DNA of 64,000 bases from Halomonas sp. CH40. GTDB lineage: Bacteria > Pseudomonadota > Gammaproteobacteria > Pseudomonadales > Halomonadaceae. The notes beneath the pieces are model-generated. The model did no database searches. It was not told where the DNA came from and was given only the letters and a program-made list of their open reading frames with translations. The stretch is from positions 186,001-250,000 of the forward strand of contig CP112982.1 in assembly GCA_041875495.1 (NCBI GenBank), read 5' to 3'. This document shows positions 16,133-25,839 of this stretch, piece after piece (position 1 is the first letter of the stretch; each line of letters begins with the position of its first letter). Made by a program: the position numbers and the translations under genes.

Positions 16133-17479
16133 CTATTTACAAGTATCAGGCCAACGTACCAGACCCCAGCCGAAAATATCATCTTTGCCGGGTGGGCCAA
16201 GATCAATGGCGTTGGCACGCGTGCCTTCTAAGGTTTCTTGGCCCGATTGTATCTCAGCCAACATAACAGCCAGGGCAAAAGGTGCCGCAAAGGAAGTGCC
16301 GGTATGGTAGGCAGTGCCGTTATCGTTGGCTGACCAAATCTGTACGCCTGGGGCAGCAAAGTCAATCTGATGACCGCGGTTGGCATTCTGATAGATACGG
16401 TTTTGGGCATCAACAGCGGTGACTGCAATGACGCCTTGGTGAGTTGCAGGATAAAGTGGAGTTGTTTCAGGACCTTGATTTCCAGCTGCTGCCACGAGCA
16501 AAATATTACTTTCTAGCAATTTATCAAGCGCTGTTTTGAGCAATAAATTTTCTGGCCCGCCTAATGCCAGATTGATAGCTTGCACATCCTTTCCGAGTAG
16601 CCAATCGAGACCGCTTAGTAAAAGATCGGTAGTTGTATCAGGGCCGCGCTCAGTCTGGCGAAATACAGCTGCCACAGAGAGTCTTGCGTCGGGCATCAAG
16701 GGGAGGAAGCCAGCGCCTGGATTTCCTAGCCATAAAGCGGCAATAGCAGTGCCGTGGCTGGCAGGTGCCAATGGAGGCCTGGCTAGCAGTAGCAGCTCAA
16801 TCGGACGGTTGGTTAGTGCCGGATGCTGAGTATTGACGCTAGTGTCTATCAACCCCAAGTGAGTATCAATCAGGCAAGTAGTGCTGTCAGGGTTAAATTG
16901 GATCAGTCGCTGAGCTGCTTGGTGTCTGGAAGATTGTAGCTGGTAACGATGGTTCAGTGCTAGGTTTGCTTGTGGCAACCGTTCAGCTGCCAGGCGCAGC
17001 TGTTCCTTTGCATTACTTCCTGGTGGGAGCCTAAAAACACTTAGCACTTTATCCAGATGTTTCAGCTGCTGGCGCTGTTTGATCTGAAATGGCAGGCTAT
17101 TGAACGCTTTGACCGCTTCGATAGCCTCCTCCATGTTTTTAGACAGCATAAGTAACTCATCAGGCTCATGATCCTGAGAGGATAATGTGTTACCAGAGGG
17201 TGGTGTTTTTACTATTGGAAATGTAGGCAGCGGAAGGCTGGATGGCCCTTGCCCCATTAGGCTTCCGCGCGGCGGTGGTGGAACCTGTTGAGAAGGAGGG
17301 CTCAGGCCAGGGTGGTCTACGTCGCTATACTCCCTATCAGTTAAAGTGTCTGGCGCTGTCTCACGATCAATGTTTTGCACCTGTTGTGCATTCAATGGTG
17401 CAGTGTGAACCATAAGCCATGCGTATAGCATCAGAAAGCCGAACTTAGTAGCTGAACGGGGAATGCTGCTAGCTTTCAT
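16133..17479 (-). CDS. S8 (subtilisin-like) serine protease, exported
   Basis: This 448-residue protein begins with a signal peptide (about 1-32, cleavage near NAQQ). A proline-rich linker and a propeptide-like segment (about 140-195, LSVFRLPPGSN...LNHRYQL) follow, then the peptidase domain. The catalytic triad is visible: Asp in CLIDTHLGLIDTSVN, His in SHGTAIAAL and Ser in GTSFAAPFA, with oxyanion Asn in VAAAGNQGP. It should act in the periplasm or outside the cell. It is the last gene of an overlapping five-gene operon and starts within the stop of the anti-sigma gene (4-base overlap). That context suggests a role in envelope signalling or surface-protein processing. Confidence 0.92.
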   Translation of the reverse strand: MKASSIPRSATKFGFLMLYAWLMVHTAPLNAQQVQNIDRETAPDTLTDREYSDVDHPGLSPPSQQVPPPPRGSLMGQGPSSLPLPTFPIVKTPPSGNTLSSQDHEPDELLMLSKNMEEAIEAVKAFNSLPFQIKQRQQLKHLDKVLSVFRLPPGSNAKEQLRLAAERLPQANLALNHRYQLQSSRHQAAQRLIQFNPDSTTCLIDTHLGLIDTSVNTQHPALTNRPIELLLLARPPLAPASHGTAIAALWLGNPGAGFLPLMPDARLSVAAVFRQTERGPDTTTDLLLSGLDWLLGKDVQAINLALGGPENLLLKTALDKLLESNILLVAAAGNQGPETTPLYPATHQGVIAVTAVDAQNRIYQNANRGHQIDFAAPGVQIWSANDNGTAYHTGTSFAAPFALAVMLAEIQSGQETLEGTRANAIDLGPPGKDDIFGWGLVRWPDTCK

Positions 17480-18057
17480 GGCCGATTGACCTCTTCGATC
17501 AAATCGCTTTCAGAAAGCTGTTGTTTGACACTATCGATATCACTGTCTTGAGGTAGTTGAAGCATATAGATGCCTAACGCTCCCGGACCGGCAATAATTT
17601 CCGCTCCAAAGGGCCGAAGAAGAGCCTCCAGTTCAACCAAGGTGATGTTGGGTTCCGGTACAATCTGGAGGTGTGATTGTGTTGCCCCTGGAGTTCCTGA
17701 TAACAATGACCACTGACTATTTGTCGTGCTTTGGAAGATAACGACACTAGTCTGCAGGGTGACCACTAAACAAGCGGCTAATGCCAGAGGCTTCCAGAAG
17801 CGCTTTATTGGCTGGCGCTGAGACAGGCTATCTGATGGAGGTGTTGTTTGTGCAATATCCCGCTTGAGTCTGGCTAGCCCCAGCTCCGCTGACGGCATCT
17901 TTTCGTCACGCTGCCATCCTTGTTTTATGGCGCGCATCAGAGAGACTTCGTTAGCCAGATCAATATCTCGAGCGATCTCCTCCTGAATGCATTTTTGTTG
18001 ATCGCTATCCAGTTTACCGTTGAGGTATAGCAGTAAATGCTCGTCATCGTACTTCAC
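17476..18057 (-). CDS. Single-pass anti-sigma factor with subtilisin-propeptide-like C-terminus
   Basis: The 193-residue protein has a cytoplasmic N-terminal domain (about 1-85, starting with DDEHLLLYLNGKLDSD, the acidic 'zinc-finger-less' anti-sigma style), one TM helix (about 90-110) and a periplasmic C-terminal domain. The latter (about 130-193) contains GAEIIAGPGALGIYMLQLP and ends in LIEEVNRP, which resembles an inhibitor-I9/subtilisin propeptide fold. It overlaps the sigma gene upstream and the S8 protease gene downstream by 4 bases each. The assignment as anti-sigma rests on topology and position. The propeptide likeness is my inference. Confidence 0.8.
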   Translation of the reverse strand: MKYDDEHLLLYLNGKLDSDQQKCIQEEIARDIDLANEVSLMRAIKQGWQRDEKMPSAELGLARLKRDIAQTTPPSDSLSQRQPIKRFWKPLALAACLVVTLQTSVVIFQSTTNSQWSLLSGTPGATQSHLQIVPEPNITLVELEALLRPFGAEIIAGPGALGIYMLQLPQDSDIDSVKQQLSESDLIEEVNRP

Positions 18058-18632
18058 TTGTCGCTCCTACCGGCTCGTGCCAGCTGTGACTTTAACGCCT
18101 TTTTAGCGTGAAAAACGCGTGATTTGACCGTTCCAACTGGAATATTGAGTATGCTGCTGATGTCTTTGTAATCGAGTTCTTCAAAAAAAGCCAAGTGAAG
18201 TATCTCGCGATACTCTTGTGCAAGGCATTTAAGGCAAGTATTCAGGTATGCCTGGTTGCTGGCAGCTTCTATGGCTCTCTCAATATCGGCAGCGGGCGCT
18301 TCATCGGGGTGGCTATCATCCAATTCTTGAAATTCTCGTCGGCCCTGTTGGCGCCAGTAATCCTGCATCTTGTGATAAGCAATTCCCAGCAGCCATGTGG
18401 TTGCTTTTGCTTGCCCTCTGAATCCGTGAGCCGCTCGCCAAGCCTCTAGCATGGTGTCATTGAGTAAGTCGTTGGCAACAAAAGTATCGTTCAAACGTGA
18501 TAGTAGAAAACGGTACACACGTTGTTGATGGCGACGATAGAAGCACTCAAGCGCTGAGTTGTCATGGCAAGCCATGGCAGCGAGGAGAGCACTATCATCA
18601 CGACTGTCTTGATAGGTATTGGTCATCGTCAT
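18054..18632 (-). CDS. ECF-family RNA polymerase sigma factor
   Basis: This 192-residue protein has region sigma2 (about 28-95; FYRRHQQRVYRFLLSRL, NDLLNDTMLEAWR, ATTWLLGIAYHKMQDYWR) and region sigma4 (about 130-182; YREILHLAFFEELDYKDISSIL, GTVKSRVFHAKKAL). This is the complete two-domain layout of extracytoplasmic-function sigma factors. It is followed directly by a membrane anti-sigma gene. Its likely targets include its own operon, since barrel, secreted protein, sigma, anti-sigma and protease are arranged with overlapping reading frames. The start ATG 18632 overlaps the upstream stop as ATGA. Confidence 0.95.
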   Translation of the reverse strand: MTMTNTYQDSRDDSALLAAMACHDNSALECFYRRHQQRVYRFLLSRLNDTFVANDLLNDTMLEAWRAAHGFRGQAKATTWLLGIAYHKMQDYWRQQGRREFQELDDSHPDEAPAADIERAIEAASNQAYLNTCLKCLAQEYREILHLAFFEELDYKDISSILNIPVGTVKSRVFHAKKALKSQLARAGRSDK

Positions 18633-19855
18633 GGGCGAATCGACTCAAGTGGACTGGCGGCTATCACTGTGCCATCGCGATCGATAGCAACCAGCCGCCA
18701 AAGATATAACTGGCCTTTTTGCAATTGATTAATCAGGCTAGAACTGGGTGATGCTGATTGGTGTTGCCCATGGAACAACTGGCCAGCACTAGGAGCTTGC
18801 GCAAGTTCTGCCTGTTGCTGACCATTTGATAAACCAGAAACAGACAGCAGTTGGTCAGTAGTGTTAGGGTAAAATTCCAGTTGATACGCATAAGCATTCG
18901 ACACTGGTCGCCAGTAAAAGCGACTATGAAGGCTGAAAGCATCTGTAGATTCGCCAAGCCAGGCATCAAGTGCAGGAATACCATTGTCGCTATCAAGAAC
19001 GCTGTCACTGACACGGTAGCTTAACGTAGGCCAATCGCGCTGATCCTCAATCATTTGACGAGGAGAGATAATCCGCAAACGTAGTCGGTGCAGGCCGTTC
19101 ATGGTGCTGGGAAGGGGGGGAGAGAGCAGCGTAATGTCGCTGCCGCTGATGTAGCGATTAACAATCTCAAGAGGCACATACAGAGGTTGTCCCACTGTAC
19201 TAACGGGTGTTGCTACCTCCCAGATAGCATTCAATCGACCTGCTTGTCGAAAGCGGATTCGTACTCTAGCTTTTAGTGGCATATCTGGGCGAATGACCTC
19301 ACTTAGTGTGCCAGTTTCAAACGTGAGAACCAGGTTCTGAATTTCGACTCCACTCGTTGTATCTATACCGTTAACGGCTTGACTACGACCTGGAACCGGC
19401 TGATGCAGATCAATTATTTGGACTGCCACGGTGGGAGAACTGCCTTCGAATTGAAAATCACGGACATAGTAGATGCGACGAACACCAGCTTGAGCCGCCA
19501 ACGCGCTGATAGAGCCAGGTACGCTCAGGCGTTCGTTGAGGCGAAATTCAAGGCCATTACCCGCGGGTAAAAGACGTTTTGTTAATGTTGTGGAGGCTCT
19601 GCCTAGAATCCGCTCACCAAAGGGGTTTTCTAGCATGAAGCGCCCTTGCGTGGAGGTAAGCATGCCGCCTTGGCGTTCGGGATCAAGGACTTCACCTAGC
19701 CACGTCACCCTCAGGTTGCTATCAATGCCAATGGTTGCTGCACCTTGGCTAGTACAGGTAAACCTGTTTTCACAAATAGAAAGTACCTGGCTATAAGCGA
19801 TGTTGCTGATGGGCAATATCGTTATCATCATCAAGATAGCTACTAAGGTTCTCAT
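18629..19855 (-). CDS. Exported protein of the sigma/S8-protease operon, function unknown
   Basis: The product (408 residues from ATG 19855) has a clear signal peptide (MRTLVAILMMITILPISNIA, cleavage near YSQ). Two cysteines lie in the N-terminal segment CENRFTCTSQG, followed by beta-rich sequence. The C-terminus (about 310-408) resembles a fibronectin/Ig-like module with YAYQLEFYP and LYLWRLVAIDRDG. The reading frame is open 28 codons further upstream, but ATG 19855 overlaps the stop of the upstream barrel gene (ATGA) and gives a proper signal peptide. I do not recognise the family. It is probably periplasmic or surface-exposed and works with the barrel protein. Confidence 0.82.
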   Translation of the reverse strand: MRTLVAILMMITILPISNIAYSQVLSICENRFTCTSQGAATIGIDSNLRVTWLGEVLDPERQGGMLTSTQGRFMLENPFGERILGRASTTLTKRLLPAGNGLEFRLNERLSVPGSISALAAQAGVRRIYYVRDFQFEGSSPTVAVQIIDLHQPVPGRSQAVNGIDTTSGVEIQNLVLTFETGTLSEVIRPDMPLKARVRIRFRQAGRLNAIWEVATPVSTVGQPLYVPLEIVNRYISGSDITLLSPPLPSTMNGLHRLRLRIISPRQMIEDQRDWPTLSYRVSDSVLDSDNGIPALDAWLGESTDAFSLHSRFYWRPVSNAYAYQLEFYPNTTDQLLSVSGLSNGQQQAELAQAPSAGQLFHGQHQSASPSSSLINQLQKGQLYLWRLVAIDRDGTVIAASPLESIRP

Positions 19856-20403
19856 GGCTGCATGCCTGGATATGAGGAAGGAAGGGTCGTCTTCAGATGC
19901 AGCCATAACTGTTGTTCGTTCAGAGTCGGGTTGTTCCATAACCTGTCCTTTAACTGATTGCCAGAATAGCTAAGCGTAAGAGAAACACCGGATCGGTTGG
20001 TTTTGGCTTTACGCAGAGTCCAATCCAGTTGGCCGCTGATATAGCGATTGACCTGATGCTGAGCAAAAAAAGGATCGTCTTCGGCGTTAAAGTGATTAAG
20101 GTTGAGGTCAACGCGGGCAGATAATCGTTCTGGAATCAACTCTGCGGTACCAGCGAGGTTATAGAGCGTTTGGTCAGTGTGCTCTCCGCTACCACGGTAA
20201 TGTGTGCGTGTGTTCTGTAAACCTGCGCTAATATGGTAGTGCTCGCTGAAGTCGAAACCGACCTGTCCACCCAGGTGTTGCAGTTGAGTGTCTGGCTGCA
20301 AACCAGTGTGGTCTGTTAGCTGTTCGATACCGGCGTCTACAGACCAATCCCACTTAGGTTGCTGAAAAGAGGCGTTGAAGTGCACACCCTCAGTAGTCAG
20401 GTT
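19852..20403 (-). pseudogene. 3' part of IS66-split outer-membrane-barrel-like gene
   Basis: This is the C-terminal 180 or so codons of a beta-barrel-like protein, cut from its 5' part (22870-24353) by IS66. Alternating hydrophobic/polar strands are visible, for example HYHISAGLQNTRTHYRG and GVSLTLSYSGNQL. Deleting the element and one copy of the 8-bp duplication restores the frame: PENLT from the 5' part continues directly as TEGVHFNASF. An internal GTG (20385) could restart translation, but without a signal peptide. The stop overlaps the start of the exported protein gene. Confidence 0.88.
20396..20403. repeat. Left 8-bp target-site duplication of IS66
   Basis: GTCAGGTT lies directly outside the left end of the element and recurs directly outside the right end (22870-22877). 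Eight bases is the usual duplication length for IS66-family insertions. Confidence 0.95.
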
Positions 20404-20485
20404 GTAAGCGCCCTTAAACCGGCATCTACCGCTCTCGCTTTTATCCCCTCACACTGATGCCATCAGATCTTTGTGAGGGGGTGTC

Positions 20486-20806
20486 ATGACGCATCAAGAA
20501 CGTGAGCAATATTGGCAGCAACAAGTCACCGAATGGCAAACCTCTGGCTTGTCCGGCATGGCGTTTTGCAAGCAACAAGCGCTAAAGTACCATCAGTTTT
20601 CTTACTGGCGTCAAAAGCTCTTGGCCAGCGCATCGTCAACAAAAGAGCCAGTCGCCGGTTTTGCCACCGTCGCATATCCCAATACCGGCACCGCAAAAGA
20701 AATAGACTCCACGGGGCTTACGGTATCACTGCCCGGCGGTATCACGGTCACGGGCTTGCACGCGGGCAACGTGGCGTTACTGGGCGATATCCTGAGGCAA
20801 CTGTGA
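20486..20806 (+). CDS. tnpA: IS66 accessory protein TnpA
   Basis: This 106-residue protein has the N-terminal helix-turn-helix-like region of IS66 OrfA (YWQQQVTEWQTSGLSGMAFC, then KYHQFSYWRQK). The C-terminus has the family pattern LTVSLPGGITVTGLHAGNVALLGDILRQL in segments. It is the first gene of the IS66 element, preceded by a GTGAGG ribosome-binding region. It overlaps tnpB by 4 bases (GTGA). It is required for transposition in studied IS66 elements, probably as a DNA-binding factor. Confidence 0.93.
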   Translation: MTHQEREQYWQQQVTEWQTSGLSGMAFCKQQALKYHQFSYWRQKLLASASSTKEPVAGFATVAYPNTGTAKEIDSTGLTVSLPGGITVTGLHAGNVALLGDILRQL

Positions 20807-21174
20807 AGCGGCCGCGCTATTTACGCCCCGCGTGGGAAATGCCCGAGATCTACCTGTACCGCGCACCGGTCGATTTTCGCAAGCAAGCCAACGGCCTGGC
20901 GTTACTGGTGGAGCAAGAACTGGGACACAACCCCTTTAGCGGGGCGCTGTATGCCTTTACTAACCGGCAGCGAAATAAAATCAAGTGCCTGATGTGGGAA
21001 GACAATGGCTTCGTGCTCTACTACAAGGCGCTGGCCGAGGAGCGCTTCAAGTGGCCCGGCCCCTCGGATGACGTTATGGCGTTGACTGGCGAGCAGATCA
21101 ACTGGCTGTTGGATGGCTACGATATCACCCTGATGCGCGGCCATAAAACACTGCATTACGACAGCGTCGGATAG
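20803..21174 (+). CDS. tnpB: IS66 accessory protein TnpB
   Basis: The protein (123 residues, GTG start at 20803 overlapping the tnpA stop) carries the IS66 OrfB signature: IYLYRAPVDFRKQANGLALLVEQEL, then ALYAFTNRQRNKIKCLMWEDNGFVLYYKALAEERFKWP in segments. The frame is open far upstream inside tnpA, but only the GTG fits the family length (about 115-125) and the coupled overlap. Its molecular role in transposition is not well defined. Confidence 0.94.
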   Translation: MKRPRYLRPAWEMPEIYLYRAPVDFRKQANGLALLVEQELGHNPFSGALYAFTNRQRNKIKCLMWEDNGFVLYYKALAEERFKWPGPSDDVMALTGEQINWLLDGYDITLMRGHKTLHYDSVG

Positions 21175-21230
21175 GCCATAAAGCTCTTATTTTCAGTGCT
21201 TTAACACACCGAATCTGGTATCATTGGCCC

Positions 21231-22826
21231 ATGAAAAAGCACCCCGAAGTCTCCTCCCAACTGCCTGATCTCAGTGGCCTCTCCGCCGCTGAGGTAGTGG
21301 CTCTTGTGGCGGGGCTTCAGCAACAGGTGACGGCTCAACAGACGGCGTTACAGCAACGTAATCTCTATATTCAATTGCTCGAAGAGAAGCTGCGCTTGCA
21401 GCGCATTCAGCAGTTCGCCGCGCGCAGTGAAAAGTCTGCGAACCAGGCTCATCTGTTCGATGAGACGGAGTTGGAAGCTGACATCGAGGCGCTACGCGAT
21501 CAGTTACCCGACGATGTCGAAGAGCAAGACGCGCCGCGTCCCTCACGTCAACGTCGCCAACGTGGCTTCTCCGACACTCTGGTCCGTGAGCGTATTGAGC
21601 TTACGCTCAGCGAAGAAGAAAAAGTCGGGGCGACCAAGACCTTCTTCGCCAAGGTAAAAGAAGAGCTTCAGTTCATCCCCGCGCAGCTGAAAGTCCTCGA
21701 ATACTGGCAGGAAAAAGCGGTGTTCCCGCTTGAGGGCAACGACCATCTCCTTACTGCGGAGCGTCCGGTTCATCCGCTAGGCAAGTGCACGGCGTCGACG
21801 TCACTGCTAGCGTACGTGATCACCTCCAAGTACGCAGACGGTTTGCCGCTGTACCGCTTGGAAGGCATGTTCAAGCGGTTAGGCCACGCTGTTAGCCGCA
21901 CGCAGATGGCCAACTGGATCATCCGCCTGAATGACGTCTTCACGCCCTTGATCACGCTGATGCGCGAAGTGCAAAACAGCAGCGCGTATCTGCAAGCCGA
22001 TGAAACGCGGCTGCAAGTGCTCAAGGAAGACGGCAAGACCGCTCAGTCAGATAAATGGATGTGGGTCACCCGAGGTGGCCCACCGGATCAACCGTCGGTG
22101 CTCTTTGCCTACGACCCGTCCCGCGGCGGCAGCGTGCCGGTGCGCCTACTCGACGACTTCTCAGGGATCCTGCAGGCCGATGGCTACGCCGGTTACGGCC
22201 AGGTATGCCGTGCCAACGGCATTACCCGCATTGGCTGTTGGGACCATGCGCGACGCAAGTTCGTGGAAGCGTCTAAGGCAGCCAAGGTCAACGCGAAAGG
22301 CAAGGGCGCCACGCCGGCCAAGGCCGAGGTAGGGCTTAGCCATATCAACAAACTCTACGCCATCGAACGGCAGATCAAGGATCTCAGCGAAGTGGAACGC
22401 TACCGTGTCCGCCAGGAGCTGAGCCTTCCGCGTCTTGAGGCCTTCAAGGCTTGGCTAGAGGCTAATGTTACCCGCGTCATGAAAGGCAGCCTGACGCGTC
22501 AGGCGATGGAATATACGCTGAACCAATGGGACTTCCTCATCGGCTATTGTGCGCGCGGCGACCTGCATATCAGTAATGTTCTGGCAGAAAACGCCATTCG
22601 CCCGTTTGCCGTTGGTCGAAGAGCCTGGCTGTTCGCGGATACCTCCCGCGGCGCTCACGCCAGTGCCACCTGTTATTCACTCATCGAAACGGCAAAAGCC
22701 AATGGCTTGGAGCCTGCTGCCTATATCCATTATGTGCTGGAGCACATCGCCACCGCTGATACGTTAGAGGCACTGGAAACGCTGCTGCCCTGGAACGTGA
22801 ACTTGGCGCCCGCCGAAAAAAAGTGA
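21231..22826 (+). CDS. tnpC: IS66 transposase TnpC
   Basis: The 531-residue transposase has an N-terminal leucine-zipper-like coiled coil (about 20-65), a basic/zinc-binding-like region, and the IS66 DDE catalytic core. The likely acidic residues lie in LQADETRLQVL, QADGYAGYG and LAENAIRPFAVGRR, and WDHARRKFVEA is also diagnostic. The C-terminal IS66_C extension (LAPAEKK end) is complete. Full length and uninterrupted, so the element may be active. Confidence 0.96.
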   Translation: MKKHPEVSSQLPDLSGLSAAEVVALVAGLQQQVTAQQTALQQRNLYIQLLEEKLRLQRIQQFAARSEKSANQAHLFDETELEADIEALRDQLPDDVEEQDAPRPSRQRRQRGFSDTLVRERIELTLSEEEKVGATKTFFAKVKEELQFIPAQLKVLEYWQEKAVFPLEGNDHLLTAERPVHPLGKCTASTSLLAYVITSKYADGLPLYRLEGMFKRLGHAVSRTQMANWIIRLNDVFTPLITLMREVQNSSAYLQADETRLQVLKEDGKTAQSDKWMWVTRGGPPDQPSVLFAYDPSRGGSVPVRLLDDFSGILQADGYAGYGQVCRANGITRIGCWDHARRKFVEASKAAKVNAKGKGATPAKAEVGLSHINKLYAIERQIKDLSEVERYRVRQELSLPRLEAFKAWLEANVTRVMKGSLTRQAMEYTLNQWDFLIGYCARGDLHISNVLAENAIRPFAVGRRAWLFADTSRGAHASATCYSLIETAKANGLEPAAYIHYVLEHIATADTLEALETLLPWNVNLAPAEKK

Positions 22827-22869
22827 AAGAACACGGCTAGGTCAAGTGTGTCGATTTAAGGGCGCTTAC

Positions 22870-22877
22870 GTCAGGTT
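22870..22877. repeat. Right 8-bp target-site duplication of IS66
   Basis: GTCAGGTT directly outside the right inverted repeat matches the left copy at 20396-20403 exactly. Confidence 0.95.
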
Positions 22878-24353
22878 TTCAGGAAAGTATCCTGATGGTG
22901 TCGATAGGTTACGTCGTCGAGTGCGATCTATTGAGAGCGTATAACTAGGCTGCCCTAGAGTCGCCCACAAACTGCCGGGCGTTGCTGTGTCATAATCACT
23001 GTAGCCTAGCTGGGCCAGCCAGCGCTGAGTTTCTGTGGTTGGGTAGAGCGGATTGCTATCAAGGTTATCTTCTTCAAGGGTAAAACTGGTGTCTAAAAAC
23101 CATTTATCACGTTCCGCCGCCAGGAAGATGCGACGCATGTCAACATCATTGGGCAAGTTGGCATGGCCCAGACTACGGTAGAAGGCGCCTACCTGTTGTG
23201 TTTCTGCTCCAACACGCCAGTGTAACGGCATATCTCCAGCTGCTGGCTCAGGTGCGAAAGTAACCAGCCCTGACCAAGCCGTATCCTTGGTAACAGCAAA
23301 ACCGAAATTGCGTCCGTCAAAATCAAAGCTGCTGGTGGCGTGCTCCAGTCGCATGCGCAGTGTCTTATCGATGAAAAAGCCATCCATAACGGCATTCCAG
23401 GCGTGACCATCGTGCACCCTGGTAGACGAACTTGGCGGCCAGCTGCCAGCGCTACTGCCCTGAACTCTTCCATTGAGATAGGTCGTACTAAACTGGATCT
23501 GAGTATGTTCGCCAGGACTCCAGTAGGTTTGCCAGCGGCCGCCTGTAATGCGATTGTCAGCCTCCTCAAGACCGATGCCGTCGCGCCAACCCAACGCCCG
23601 GGTGCCGCGCATGCCGAAGAGCCTCAGGTCACTGTTGATAGAATCCAAACTTAGGTCTCCGGCCATGCCTCGCTGTTGATAGCCTTCCATAAGCAGACTA
23701 CTAGTACCCATTTGCTGGTCGCCAGCAGTTACCCGAGTGGTGTCTGTTTCTGCTAGCAGAGTCAGGCGTGTCATATCCAGATGTTGGCCGGTAGCACTTT
23801 GGCTGGCGCGATGAGCATATTCCTGGTTTGTGTGGCCTTGAATTTTCAGGTCGTCTGTCACTAGCTCGCCATACCATTGGCTGGACCCTGTTGCATTGAA
23901 GTCATCACCAGTATTCATATTGTGTTCTAACAGACGTTGCTGAGCACTCAGTTCGGTATTGCCTTCCAAAGTCAGTTGTTTCACGTGTTGACTATAGCGA
24001 ACCTCGAATGACCAGTCTCCTAACTCTGCGACGCTGCCATCCTGCCCGTAGTACATCAGGCGCAATTGATGCTGGCCTGGTTTCAGAGTGCGTACAGGCT
24101 TGTATGCCAACTCTTCTGGGCGCCATTCCACCATATCGCTGACATCAATATTATTGAGTTCCAGGTGCAATTGCGCTTGCTGATCAGGGGTTAATGGCGC
24201 AGAAAAGATCAAGGTCAGAGGGTCGCCCGATATTAGAAAATTGCCGGGTTTAGCACCACTGAATTCAGCGTGCCACCCGGGTGTTGGCGGTGATGCAACC
24301 GTTAACGCGGGTACCAGGCACACCAATAATACACCGCAAGCCAATCCTTTCAC
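22870..24353 (-). pseudogene. 5' part of IS66-split outer-membrane-barrel-like gene
   Basis: This part encodes about 494 residues: a signal peptide (MKGLACGVLLVCLVPALTVA), an N-terminal beta-sandwich-like region with FLISGDPLTLIFSAPLT, then long barrel-like stretches (residues about 150-494). Translation runs three bases into the IS66 end and stops at TAA 22866-22868. The intact ancestor would be about 675-678 residues. GTG 24353 was preferred over GTG 24362 because AAGGGAG is then correctly spaced. It is the first gene of the sigma/S8-protease operon; I cannot name the family. The truncated product lacks its last strands and should not fold normally in the outer membrane. Confidence 0.85.
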
Positions 24354-24362
24354 GTCTATCAC

Positions 24363-24843
24363 TCCCTTGATGCCTTTTCATATAAGGTCTTGTACAGAAT
24401 TTTTTTATAATAAGAGCTAGGTTATTGAATTTGTTGAGATATAGCCTAGCCCTAATGCGCTGTGCAGCTATGAGTCGTTGGCAGTGTTTGTGAGGTTCAT
24501 TGTTTTCTACATTTTGTGCAATTTACGCACCTCTTTGCGCTGTGCACCTCACCAGATCAGTGTTTTTCACCAACCCCAGTGAACAGCATTAATAGAAGCT
24601 TATGTAATGGTAGTACCTCTAGTACGTTTTGCCAAAATGTACTGAATTTTCGGTTGCCGAGCCTGGGCGTGGCCGTAGATGCTTAAAAAATTAAAAAACA
24701 CGTGAACCTTCTACAGATATATTGCGACTTAGTTAATGCGCTCTTTGATAATTAGGCACTGTGTATAGAAAATTTTCTATATCTTTTTCTTAAGTTGAGA
24801 GCTAATTAATGGTGTAATTTTTGATTTAAGATAGGAGAAAGTC
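24363..24843. other. AT-rich intergenic region with divergent promoters
   Basis: This 480-base stretch shows no convincing gene. It is clearly more AT-rich than the flanking operon. It should carry the promoter of the minus-strand barrel operon on its left side and that of the small exported protein on its right side (ATAGGAG ribosome-binding site just before 24844). No clear sigma-70 or ECF promoter could be assigned by eye. Confidence 0.6.
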
Positions 24844-25179
24844 ATGAAAAACTTAATTATATGCACGTCTATACCAATTTTTATTTTGTATGGATCCAAT
24901 TCGTTTGCTGCACAACCCTGTAGTGAGGGAGACAGAGAGCACTTTCAAAAGGTTTGTACAGATATTCGAGAAGAAGGTAACTTGAAGAGTTGCAAAATTA
25001 ATAATGATGGAAATTACTCGATTCGATGCGAAGATACAGTAACTCCTTTTGTAGATAATGGTATGAGAAGCTTTAGAAGCATTGAGAGATTTAATTTGGG
25101 TGGTAGCGAAAACGTAGATGGCAATCTTTCTGGGAGCGGAAGTAAACAGGTTAAGCGAGTTGAAGAATTTTCCAGATAA
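24844..25179 (+). CDS. Small exported cysteine-containing protein, unknown
   Basis: The 111-residue product has a signal peptide (about 1-22; hydrophobic IICTSIPIFILYG, cleavage near FAA-QP). The mature part has four cysteines (in AQPCSEG, VCTDI, KSCKI and IRCED), which could form two disulfides in the periplasm. The C-terminal third is glycine/serine-rich. ATG 24844 is preceded by AGGAGAAAGTC. Codon use is visibly AT-richer than in neighbouring genes, suggesting acquisition by transfer. I do not recognise the family. Confidence 0.7.
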   Translation: MKNLIICTSIPIFILYGSNSFAAQPCSEGDREHFQKVCTDIREEGNLKSCKINNDGNYSIRCEDTVTPFVDNGMRSFRSIERFNLGGSENVDGNLSGSGSKQVKRVEEFSR

Positions 25180-25437
25180 GGCTAATAAGGTTATGCCCGT
25201 AGGAATTTTAGACTTGGGAGGATCCACACTCTATGCCGAAGAGCCAATAATATGAACCGCTGGATGACATTGTGCGACTTATTGCGTGCGCATACCGAAA
25301 AACTTAGTTATGGAATGATTGCTTAGAGCTTTCTAGATTTTAATAGTATGGCGCATTGGGAAATGCTGGTTTGACAAGTGTGATTTGTCAGCCTTTATGG
25401 AAAATTAATTGATATTGAAATGACCCGGAGATTAAAA

Positions 25438-25839
25438 ATGAAAAAATTAACGACTTTTATCGCAGCTTCTTTGCTTGTTGCTATGGGTGCAACATCTGCT
25501 GTGCAAGCACAAGAAAGGACTGACTTGACGATGTCTGCTGCAGGAGCAGAGCAAAGATCTAAAGTTTCTTTTAGCGTCGACACTCGAGGCATTCAGCAGG
25601 AAGCACGAAAGCTTGAATCTTCATTGAAACGTAGCCCAGAGTTGCGAGAAAAATTGGCTATGGCAATGGCTGAAAAGAACACTCGCCAAGTTCAAGCTGT
25701 TTTAGCTGAAGCGGGTGTTTCTCGCGGCCTTTTAAATTCTGATAACATAGTTATGGCTGCAGATTTTACTCTGTGTATTGGAAAGTGGAATAATGGAGAG
25801 TGTAAAGGTGTTTTTATAACTACTGAAAGTTTGCAATAG
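25438..25839 (+). CDS. Small exported protein with leader-like helical segment, unknown
   Basis: The product (133 residues from ATG 25438, ribosome-binding site CGGAG) has a typical signal peptide (MKKLTTFIAASLLVAMGATS, cleavage AQA-QE). The middle is helical and charged (ELREKLAMAMAEKNTRQVQA, VLAEAGV). The C-terminus has two cysteines, FTLCIGKWNNGECKG. The helical block loosely recalls NHLP/Nif11 peptide leaders, but these are not normally exported with a Sec signal, so that likeness may be fortuitous. The frame is open 18 bases earlier, where the ATG lacks a ribosome-binding site. It is followed by a hairpin terminator. AT-rich like the preceding gene. Confidence 0.72.
   Translation: MKKLTTFIAASLLVAMGATSAVQAQERTDLTMSAAGAEQRSKVSFSVDTRGIQQEARKLESSLKRSPELREKLAMAMAEKNTRQVQAVLAEAGVSRGLLNSDNIVMAADFTLCIGKWNNGECKGVFITTESLQ

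Follow-up and report, generated by a model that had tools for sequence, protein, structure and literature searches.

The proteases named as site-1 proteases of bacterial regulated intramembrane proteolysis in a 2020 review are DegS, DegP, SipS, SipT, and Prc, and the terms subtilisin and subtilase are absent from the accessible part of that review (PMC7593790). A subtilase is found in the genetic context of the ECF54 group of extracytoplasmic function (ECF) sigma factors, which, as far as the excerpted account goes, works without an anti-sigma factor (PMC8999054). In Myxococcus xanthus, the protein PopD is described, in the available extract, as a partner that holds the subtilisin-like protease PopC, which is freed when the partner is degraded (PMC6434023). 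Here, we analyze a 64,000-nucleotide stretch of the genome of Halomonas sp. CH40 (assembly GCA_041875495.1, contig CP112982.1, positions 186,001 to 250,000; hereafter, the window), which contains a minus-strand operon encoding, in order, an outer-membrane barrel, an exported 408-aa protein (P408), an ECF sigma factor, an anti-sigma factor (AS), and an S8 subtilase. We favor, with a probability of roughly 0.55, the view that these five genes form a gene switch, in which AS is a lock with a prodomain-like domain that is cut by the neighboring S8 protease, thereby turning on genes for exported proteins.

Results

The five-gene operon and its conservation

The five genes lie on one strand of a 3.67 Mb, single-contig genome, and each adjoining pair overlaps by four bases, as the initial annotation of this DNA had stated. 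It had also given every overlap as ATGA, which applies to three of the four junctions; the ECF/AS junction is GTGA. The proposed barrel-like, exported 408-aa, ECF sigma, one-transmembrane anti-sigma, and S8 genes were all confirmed as real, and the promoter set, the divergent exported-protein genes, and the prodomain-like domain of AS described below are additions to that annotation. Pfam identified S8 as a subtilase (E 6e-24) and the sigma factor through region 2 (E 4.8e-16) and region 4 (E 1e-14), gave the 177-aa piece of the barrel weak outer-membrane matches only, and left both P408 and the 498-aa piece without any match at E values of 1 or below.

Large protein searches returned four matches for AS and nine for P408, and a profile built from the nine P408 sequences yielded 16 loci in named genomes. 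Conservation of the gene order had been put forward as the test of a genuine system, and phmmer searches with the window proteins found the complete order barrel-P408-ECF-AS-S8 at 13 of the 16 loci, in distantly related bacteria; given this recurrence, a chance gene order was set aside. The 13 include one locus with S8 truncated at the contig end (L017), two that are near copies (L022 and L023), and two from the same metagenome-assembled genome (MAG; L017 and L021). The hosts are Halomonas, Billgrantia, Gilvimarinus, and Nitrincola, together with MAGs of Chromatiales, other Gammaproteobacteria, Pseudomonas, Cellvibrionales, and Piscirickettsiaceae, and two of Alphaproteobacteria (L024 and L028, the latter a Micavibrio, which we take to belong to that class). 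At two of the three other loci (L014 and L019) the contig stops before the expected position of S8; in the third, from H. llamarensis (L015, genome G188), barrel and P408 are followed by other genes and a small exported protein gene is kept, with neither AS nor S8 found. In the Gilvimarinus locus (L020, 8929-10465), also among the 13, P408 is split over two consecutive open reading frames (ORFs), which are either two proteins or the result of a frame break. The distribution is patchy: counting the window genome each time, a P408 match was obtained for 6 of the 250 family genomes (two marginal) and for 2 of the 398 phylum genomes; the marginal matches, in G199 and G126, have an internal stop and were not counted as members.

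The anti-sigma factor and the S8 protease

AS has an anti-sigma domain, one transmembrane segment, and a periplasmic domain. Among 38 aligned AS proteins, 27 match zf-HC2; the window AS itself does not, and for its N-terminal domain we relied on the alignment, the structural model, and NCBIfam, where an anti-sigma family matches weakly (23.9 bits; cut-off 100). At the periplasmic end, the only recurrent Pfam family is the subtilase prodomain (11 of the 38, at E up to 0.1), the window AS itself scoring below threshold against PF22148 (16.2 bits versus a curated cut-off of 21). The predicted fold of this end is strand-helix-strand-strand-helix-strand, and its best structural match is of the subtilisin propeptide kind, and unrelated chains score nearly as well. 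When solved structures were searched with an AS profile, an anti-sigma domain was recovered (DdvA, E 0.015) but not a prodomain, and hhalign comparison of the AS end with S8 prodomain regions gave weak matches. The alignment with 1spb, whose entry title gives a propeptide of 77 residues, ends at AS residue 193, which corresponds to propeptide residue 71. The C-terminal tail of a subtilisin propeptide reaches the active site of the protease; since the AS fold stops about 6 residues short of having that tail, a docking handle is favored over a tight inhibitor.

The active-site Asp, His, Asn, and Ser are intact in all 20 aligned S8 proteins (an alignment that omits the contig-truncated L017, L063, and L066, plus L076), and no PDZ domain is among the matches listed for S8. 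The operon S8 is the single PF00082 match of the window genome, which also encodes one M50 protein, an RseP-type site-2 protease (PF02163, 248.1 bits). When 369 genomes of the class were searched with a profile made from 17 AS proteins, 77 gave a match, in many cases to the anti-sigma domain alone; around the strong AS matches we took 20 regions, of which 19 could be assessed (the contig of L067 ends first), and S8 adjoins AS in 15. The idea, already raised in the initial annotation, that S8 may cut AS gains support from the prodomain-like domain predicted by modeling, from this adjacency, and from S8 being the only one found in the genome.

A different explanation of the same domain is that it mainly holds or inhibits S8, that S8 acts in maturation, either of the barrel or P408, as the initial annotation had also suggested, or of the exported proteins, and that sigma release is a side effect reporting free protease. 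It would suit a protease encoded last in an operon of envelope proteins and carrying, as read by eye, a signal peptide; the structural matches of the AS end include POIA1, a trans-acting subtilisin inhibitor, and the products of the predicted regulon, being exported, could be processed by such a protease. Nevertheless, we think it unlikely, as the AS chains of the five-gene group end shortly beyond the fold, 34-45 residues past a GP motif (40-52 in the wider group; the ranges overlap, so that the two groups differ by degree only), and H. llamarensis retains the candidate substrates with no AS or S8 found, an argument that is weak in coming from one genome.

A predicted promoter and a candidate regulon of exported proteins

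A TGAAC element followed by CG approximately 16 bases on was spotted by eye ahead of the barrel genes in the window, L020, L063, and L065, and scanning all loci then revealed TGAACC-N16-CGAC at many of them. The pattern TGAACC-N16-CGACNNA occurs three times in the window versus 0.01 expected, although CGACNNA was defined only after all loci had been scanned, which makes chance figures optimistic; genome-wide, the N16-17 pattern has five matches (these three among them) against four for the reversed pattern. Of the 18 loci that had not been used for reading the motif, 10 contain TGAAC[CG]-N16-17-CGAC in the 2.5 kb upstream of their barrel gene, with 12 matches in total, compared to a mean of 0.25 and a maximum of 2 in 300 shuffles. 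Restricting the pattern to TGAACC leaves 9 of the 18, with the L022 match on the opposite strand. This count left out L023, as a near copy, L017, L060, and L067, whose contigs end on the barrel side, and L059, which is on the contig of L018.

From the barrel start onward, the same 18 loci hold 24 further matches, which by reading comprise 16 within barrel or ECF codons, five in the ECF-AS gap, and three before exported genes past S8. The 16, which arise in conserved codons, are coding coincidence and a trap for motif counts. With the training loci included, the motif is present in the ECF-AS gap of seven loci and at the genes past S8 of four. In 14 wider regions (10 with S8 and four without), TGAACC-N16-CGAC lies within 1.5 kb upstream of ECF in L068 and L077 only. 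We infer that the ECF sigma factor of the operon is the user of TGAACC-N16-CGAC.

Across eight genomes with the system, the N16 pattern has 37 sites versus 8 for its reversed form, whereas four genomes without the full system (three lacking a P408 match, plus H. llamarensis, where barrel and P408 are retained) have 5 versus 15, with none in H. llamarensis. Eight of the 37 sites are in or beside core genes and one was left out. Of the 28 examined, 23 have, within 330 nt, an ORF of at least 80 aa to which a crude rule assigns a signal peptide; without the three sites in motif-training loci the figure is 20/25. Random positions passed the signal-peptide rule in 399/3000 and 393/3000 cases, and the sites in genomes without the full system in 1/5 (strict rule) or 2/5 (looser rule). 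One of the 23, the permease-like L131, looks false. Of the sites in the window genome, the three local ones satisfy the signal-peptide rule, unlike the two at a distance.

The candidate products include an exported family of ~450 aa (L020, L022, L024, L025, L026, L028, and L065), exported CARDB proteins (L018, L079, L134, and L140), and, as judged by eye, some lipoproteins. Small cysteine-containing exported proteins occur at the Halomonas loci, and what looks by eye like another one lies behind its own site on a second H. lysinitropha contig (L142); BLAST gave no match for it. No homologue of a small exported Halomonas protein was found in the window genome, in a search run without a positive control. 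The 111-aa and 139-aa proteins of the window have no Pfam match over cut-off, nor did BLAST match them to any of 16 exported proteins from relatives. Genome G263 has 14 promoter matches versus none for the reversed pattern, and perhaps carries a larger exported-protein regulon.

The barrel, P408, and the wider module

The intact 675-aa barrel of H. lysinitropha (L013) was modeled with a 23-row alignment (mean predicted local distance difference test score 88.2; predicted template modeling score 0.72). The model has an N-terminal domain of short strands (residues 29-118), followed by a predicted barrel of 26 strands, counted manually. We read the N-terminal domain as Ig-like; weak Big_13 matches appear in 2 of the 23 rows, and the barrel has weak outer-membrane Pfam matches (OMP_b-brl in 3 of the 23). 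Its fold matches are outer-membrane barrels in general, with most residues (466) aligned to chain B of the Mtr complex; since many porins and receptors match at similar Z, we claim no barrel family. Among 29 P408 relatives, Ig-like matches at E up to 0.1 are to PF25788 in 13 and to fn3 in 5, and the window P408 has none of the Ig/fn3 kind. TonB plug, TonB-receptor, and STN domains were not matched in the 23 barrel rows at E up to 0.1 (two of these rows are the window halves), and FecR is absent from the 24 families listed for the 38 AS proteins. A TonB-type receptor system was set aside on these grounds.

Ten further regions have S8 beside AS in five cases (L079, L081, L082, L084, and L088); L080 ends too early, L083 has a prodomain-like AS with no S8 found, and L085-L087 have no S8 found nor, by eye, a prodomain-like AS end. 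Altogether, nine regions have ECF-AS-S8 but show neither a barrel nor a P408 match in the part examined (L068, L073, L074, L075, L077, L078, L081, L082, and L088), which makes S8 the more constant partner. Near some of these modules there is a different, small outer-membrane protein, matching Gcw_chp in L073, L077, and L082 and, weakly, OMP_b-brl in L075; that of L088 has no family match. Regions without S8 beside AS have other neighbors. In L071 (7961-9975), a caspase-like C14 protein with a Sel1 repeat, possibly another protease in the same arrangement, replaces S8 after ECF and a prodomain-like AS. In L069, L070, and L072, ECF and a prodomain-like AS lie, by eye, beside a dapB-like gene, with dnaJ/dnaK-like genes as well in L070 and L072.

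These regions bear on whether the barrel and P408 are instead a FecA-like sensor, in which P408 or the N-terminal domain of the barrel shields AS from a housekeeping protease and S8 is a mere member of the regulon. The two genes precede ECF at the five-gene loci, the modeled barrel has a folded domain ahead of its strands, and in FoxA/FoxR, in the part of the report at hand, the receptor shields the anti-sigma factor (PMC11637429). However, the nine modules without a barrel or P408 in view, and the lack of TonB plug, STN, or FecR matches, make such a sensor rather improbable. More doubtful still is the proposal that AS ends in a generic ferredoxin-like sensor domain for another ligand, with the subtilase neighbor as inherited linkage: rival structural matches are close in Z and S8 was not found beside AS in 4 of the 19 regions (L069-L072; one with the C14 protein), but the only family that recurs at the AS end is the subtilase prodomain, and the sole S8 match of the window genome is in this operon.

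The IS66 insertion and features of the window

The barrel gene of the window is interrupted by an IS66 element (Table 1) with Pfam matches to the DDE transposase (6.9e-89) and TnpB (2.5e-35), and perfect inverted repeats of 15 bp at its ends; the 8-bp target sequence AACCTGAC is duplicated (20396-20403 and 22870-22877). The element is probably polar on the four downstream genes of the operon. As it separates the promoter from P408, ECF, AS, and S8, and its own genes run in the opposite direction, the window strain probably has an impaired switch.

Table 1. Features of the operon and its surroundings (positions in the window)
Feature	Position	Strand	Remarks
S8 subtilase, signal peptide (read by eye)	16133..17479	-	D212 H242 N334 S396
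AS, anti-sigma factor	17476..18057	-	GTG start
AS periplasmic subtilisin-prodomain-like domain, residues 127-193	17479..17679	-	predicted
AS transmembrane segment, residues 90-108	17734..17790	-	
AS cytoplasmic anti-sigma domain, residues 1-71	17845..18057	-	
ECF sigma factor	18054..18632	-	Pfam matches
P408, exported 408-aa protein	18629..19855	-	
Outer-membrane barrel gene, last part	19852..20403	-	177-aa piece
IS66 element	20404..22869	transposase genes on +	2466 bp; interrupts barrel gene
Outer-membrane barrel gene, first part	22870..24362	-	start GTG 24362 or 24353; disrupted by IS66; 498-aa piece
Predicted ECF promoter TGAACC-N16-CGACTCA	24471..24499	-	faces barrel operon
Predicted ECF promoter	24703..24731	+	faces 111-aa exported gene
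111-aa exported protein gene	24844..25179	+	predicted regulon member
Predicted ECF promoter	25253..25281	+	faces 139-aa exported gene
139-aa exported protein gene	25420..25839	+	predicted regulon member

Discussion

Three features of an ECF sigma factor released by regulated intramembrane proteolysis are found here: an ECF gene beside an anti-sigma gene, a membrane architecture of AS, and a site-2 protease in the genome. In the switch that we propose, AS would hold the ECF sigma factor until exported S8, having shed the prodomain it was made with, docks at the end of AS and makes a site-1 cut near the membrane. RseP and cytoplasmic proteases would then complete the degradation of AS, and the freed sigma factor would transcribe the operon, AS-S8, and the exported-protein genes. 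The barrel and P408 may serve as an outer-membrane port or scaffold for the exported proteins. More tentatively, and at somewhat less than even odds, an anti-sigma factor might have captured a subtilase prodomain, so that free mature S8 in the periplasm is the signal and the answer is an exported regulon with a wide barrel and an Ig-like partner, amounting to self-timed export or surface display.

If true, a sigma factor would here be triggered in a new way, by a subtilase and a matching prodomain-like handle on AS. The promoter pattern makes the idea immediately testable, as it provides a candidate regulon of exported proteins, many of them without a Pfam match, and strain records exist for the host groups Halomonas, Billgrantia, Gilvimarinus, and Nitrincola. 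The initial annotation had recognized no described system of this kind, and we likewise met none in the literature surveyed, nor any description of an anti-sigma factor with a subtilase prodomain, although the large ECF re-classification might hold a group description. We rate the five-gene system as a variant of ECF/anti-sigma signaling that is apparently new.

Several described systems share parts of it. ECF54, on the excerpt cited above, also has a subtilase near an ECF sigma factor; as AS is present here, membership of ECF54 was rejected. PopC/PopD likewise involves a partner-held subtilisin-like protease, although the extract available does not mention an ECF sigma or anti-sigma factor. 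Subtilisin propeptides and POIA1 resemble the predicted fold of AS residues 127-193, whereas the AS version is fused to a transmembrane anti-sigma factor and lacks the tail residues. The barrel differs from MtrB in its extra N-terminal domain, at 9% identity and with many other barrels at similar Z, and, unlike the MtrB setting, there is no Pfam match to a cytochrome in the five genes. FecIR and FoxIR also encode a barrel, an ECF sigma factor, and an anti-sigma factor together; here, in contrast, there is a dedicated protease, no match to a TonB plug, STN, or FecR, and a modeled 26-strand barrel with a separate N-terminal domain. The likeness to the envelope-stress systems Sigma-E/RseA/DegS and AlgU/MucA/AlgW lies in a membrane anti-sigma factor whose cytoplasmic part binds the sigma factor, a serine protease of the periplasm (whose site-1 role is predicted here), and an RseP-type protease. 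What sets the Halomonas operon apart from these systems is that its protease belongs to family S8 rather than being an S1 protease with PDZ such as DegS (which was not sought elsewhere in the genome), that this protease is encoded within the operon, that AS has a prodomain-like end, and that the predicted regulon consists of exported proteins.

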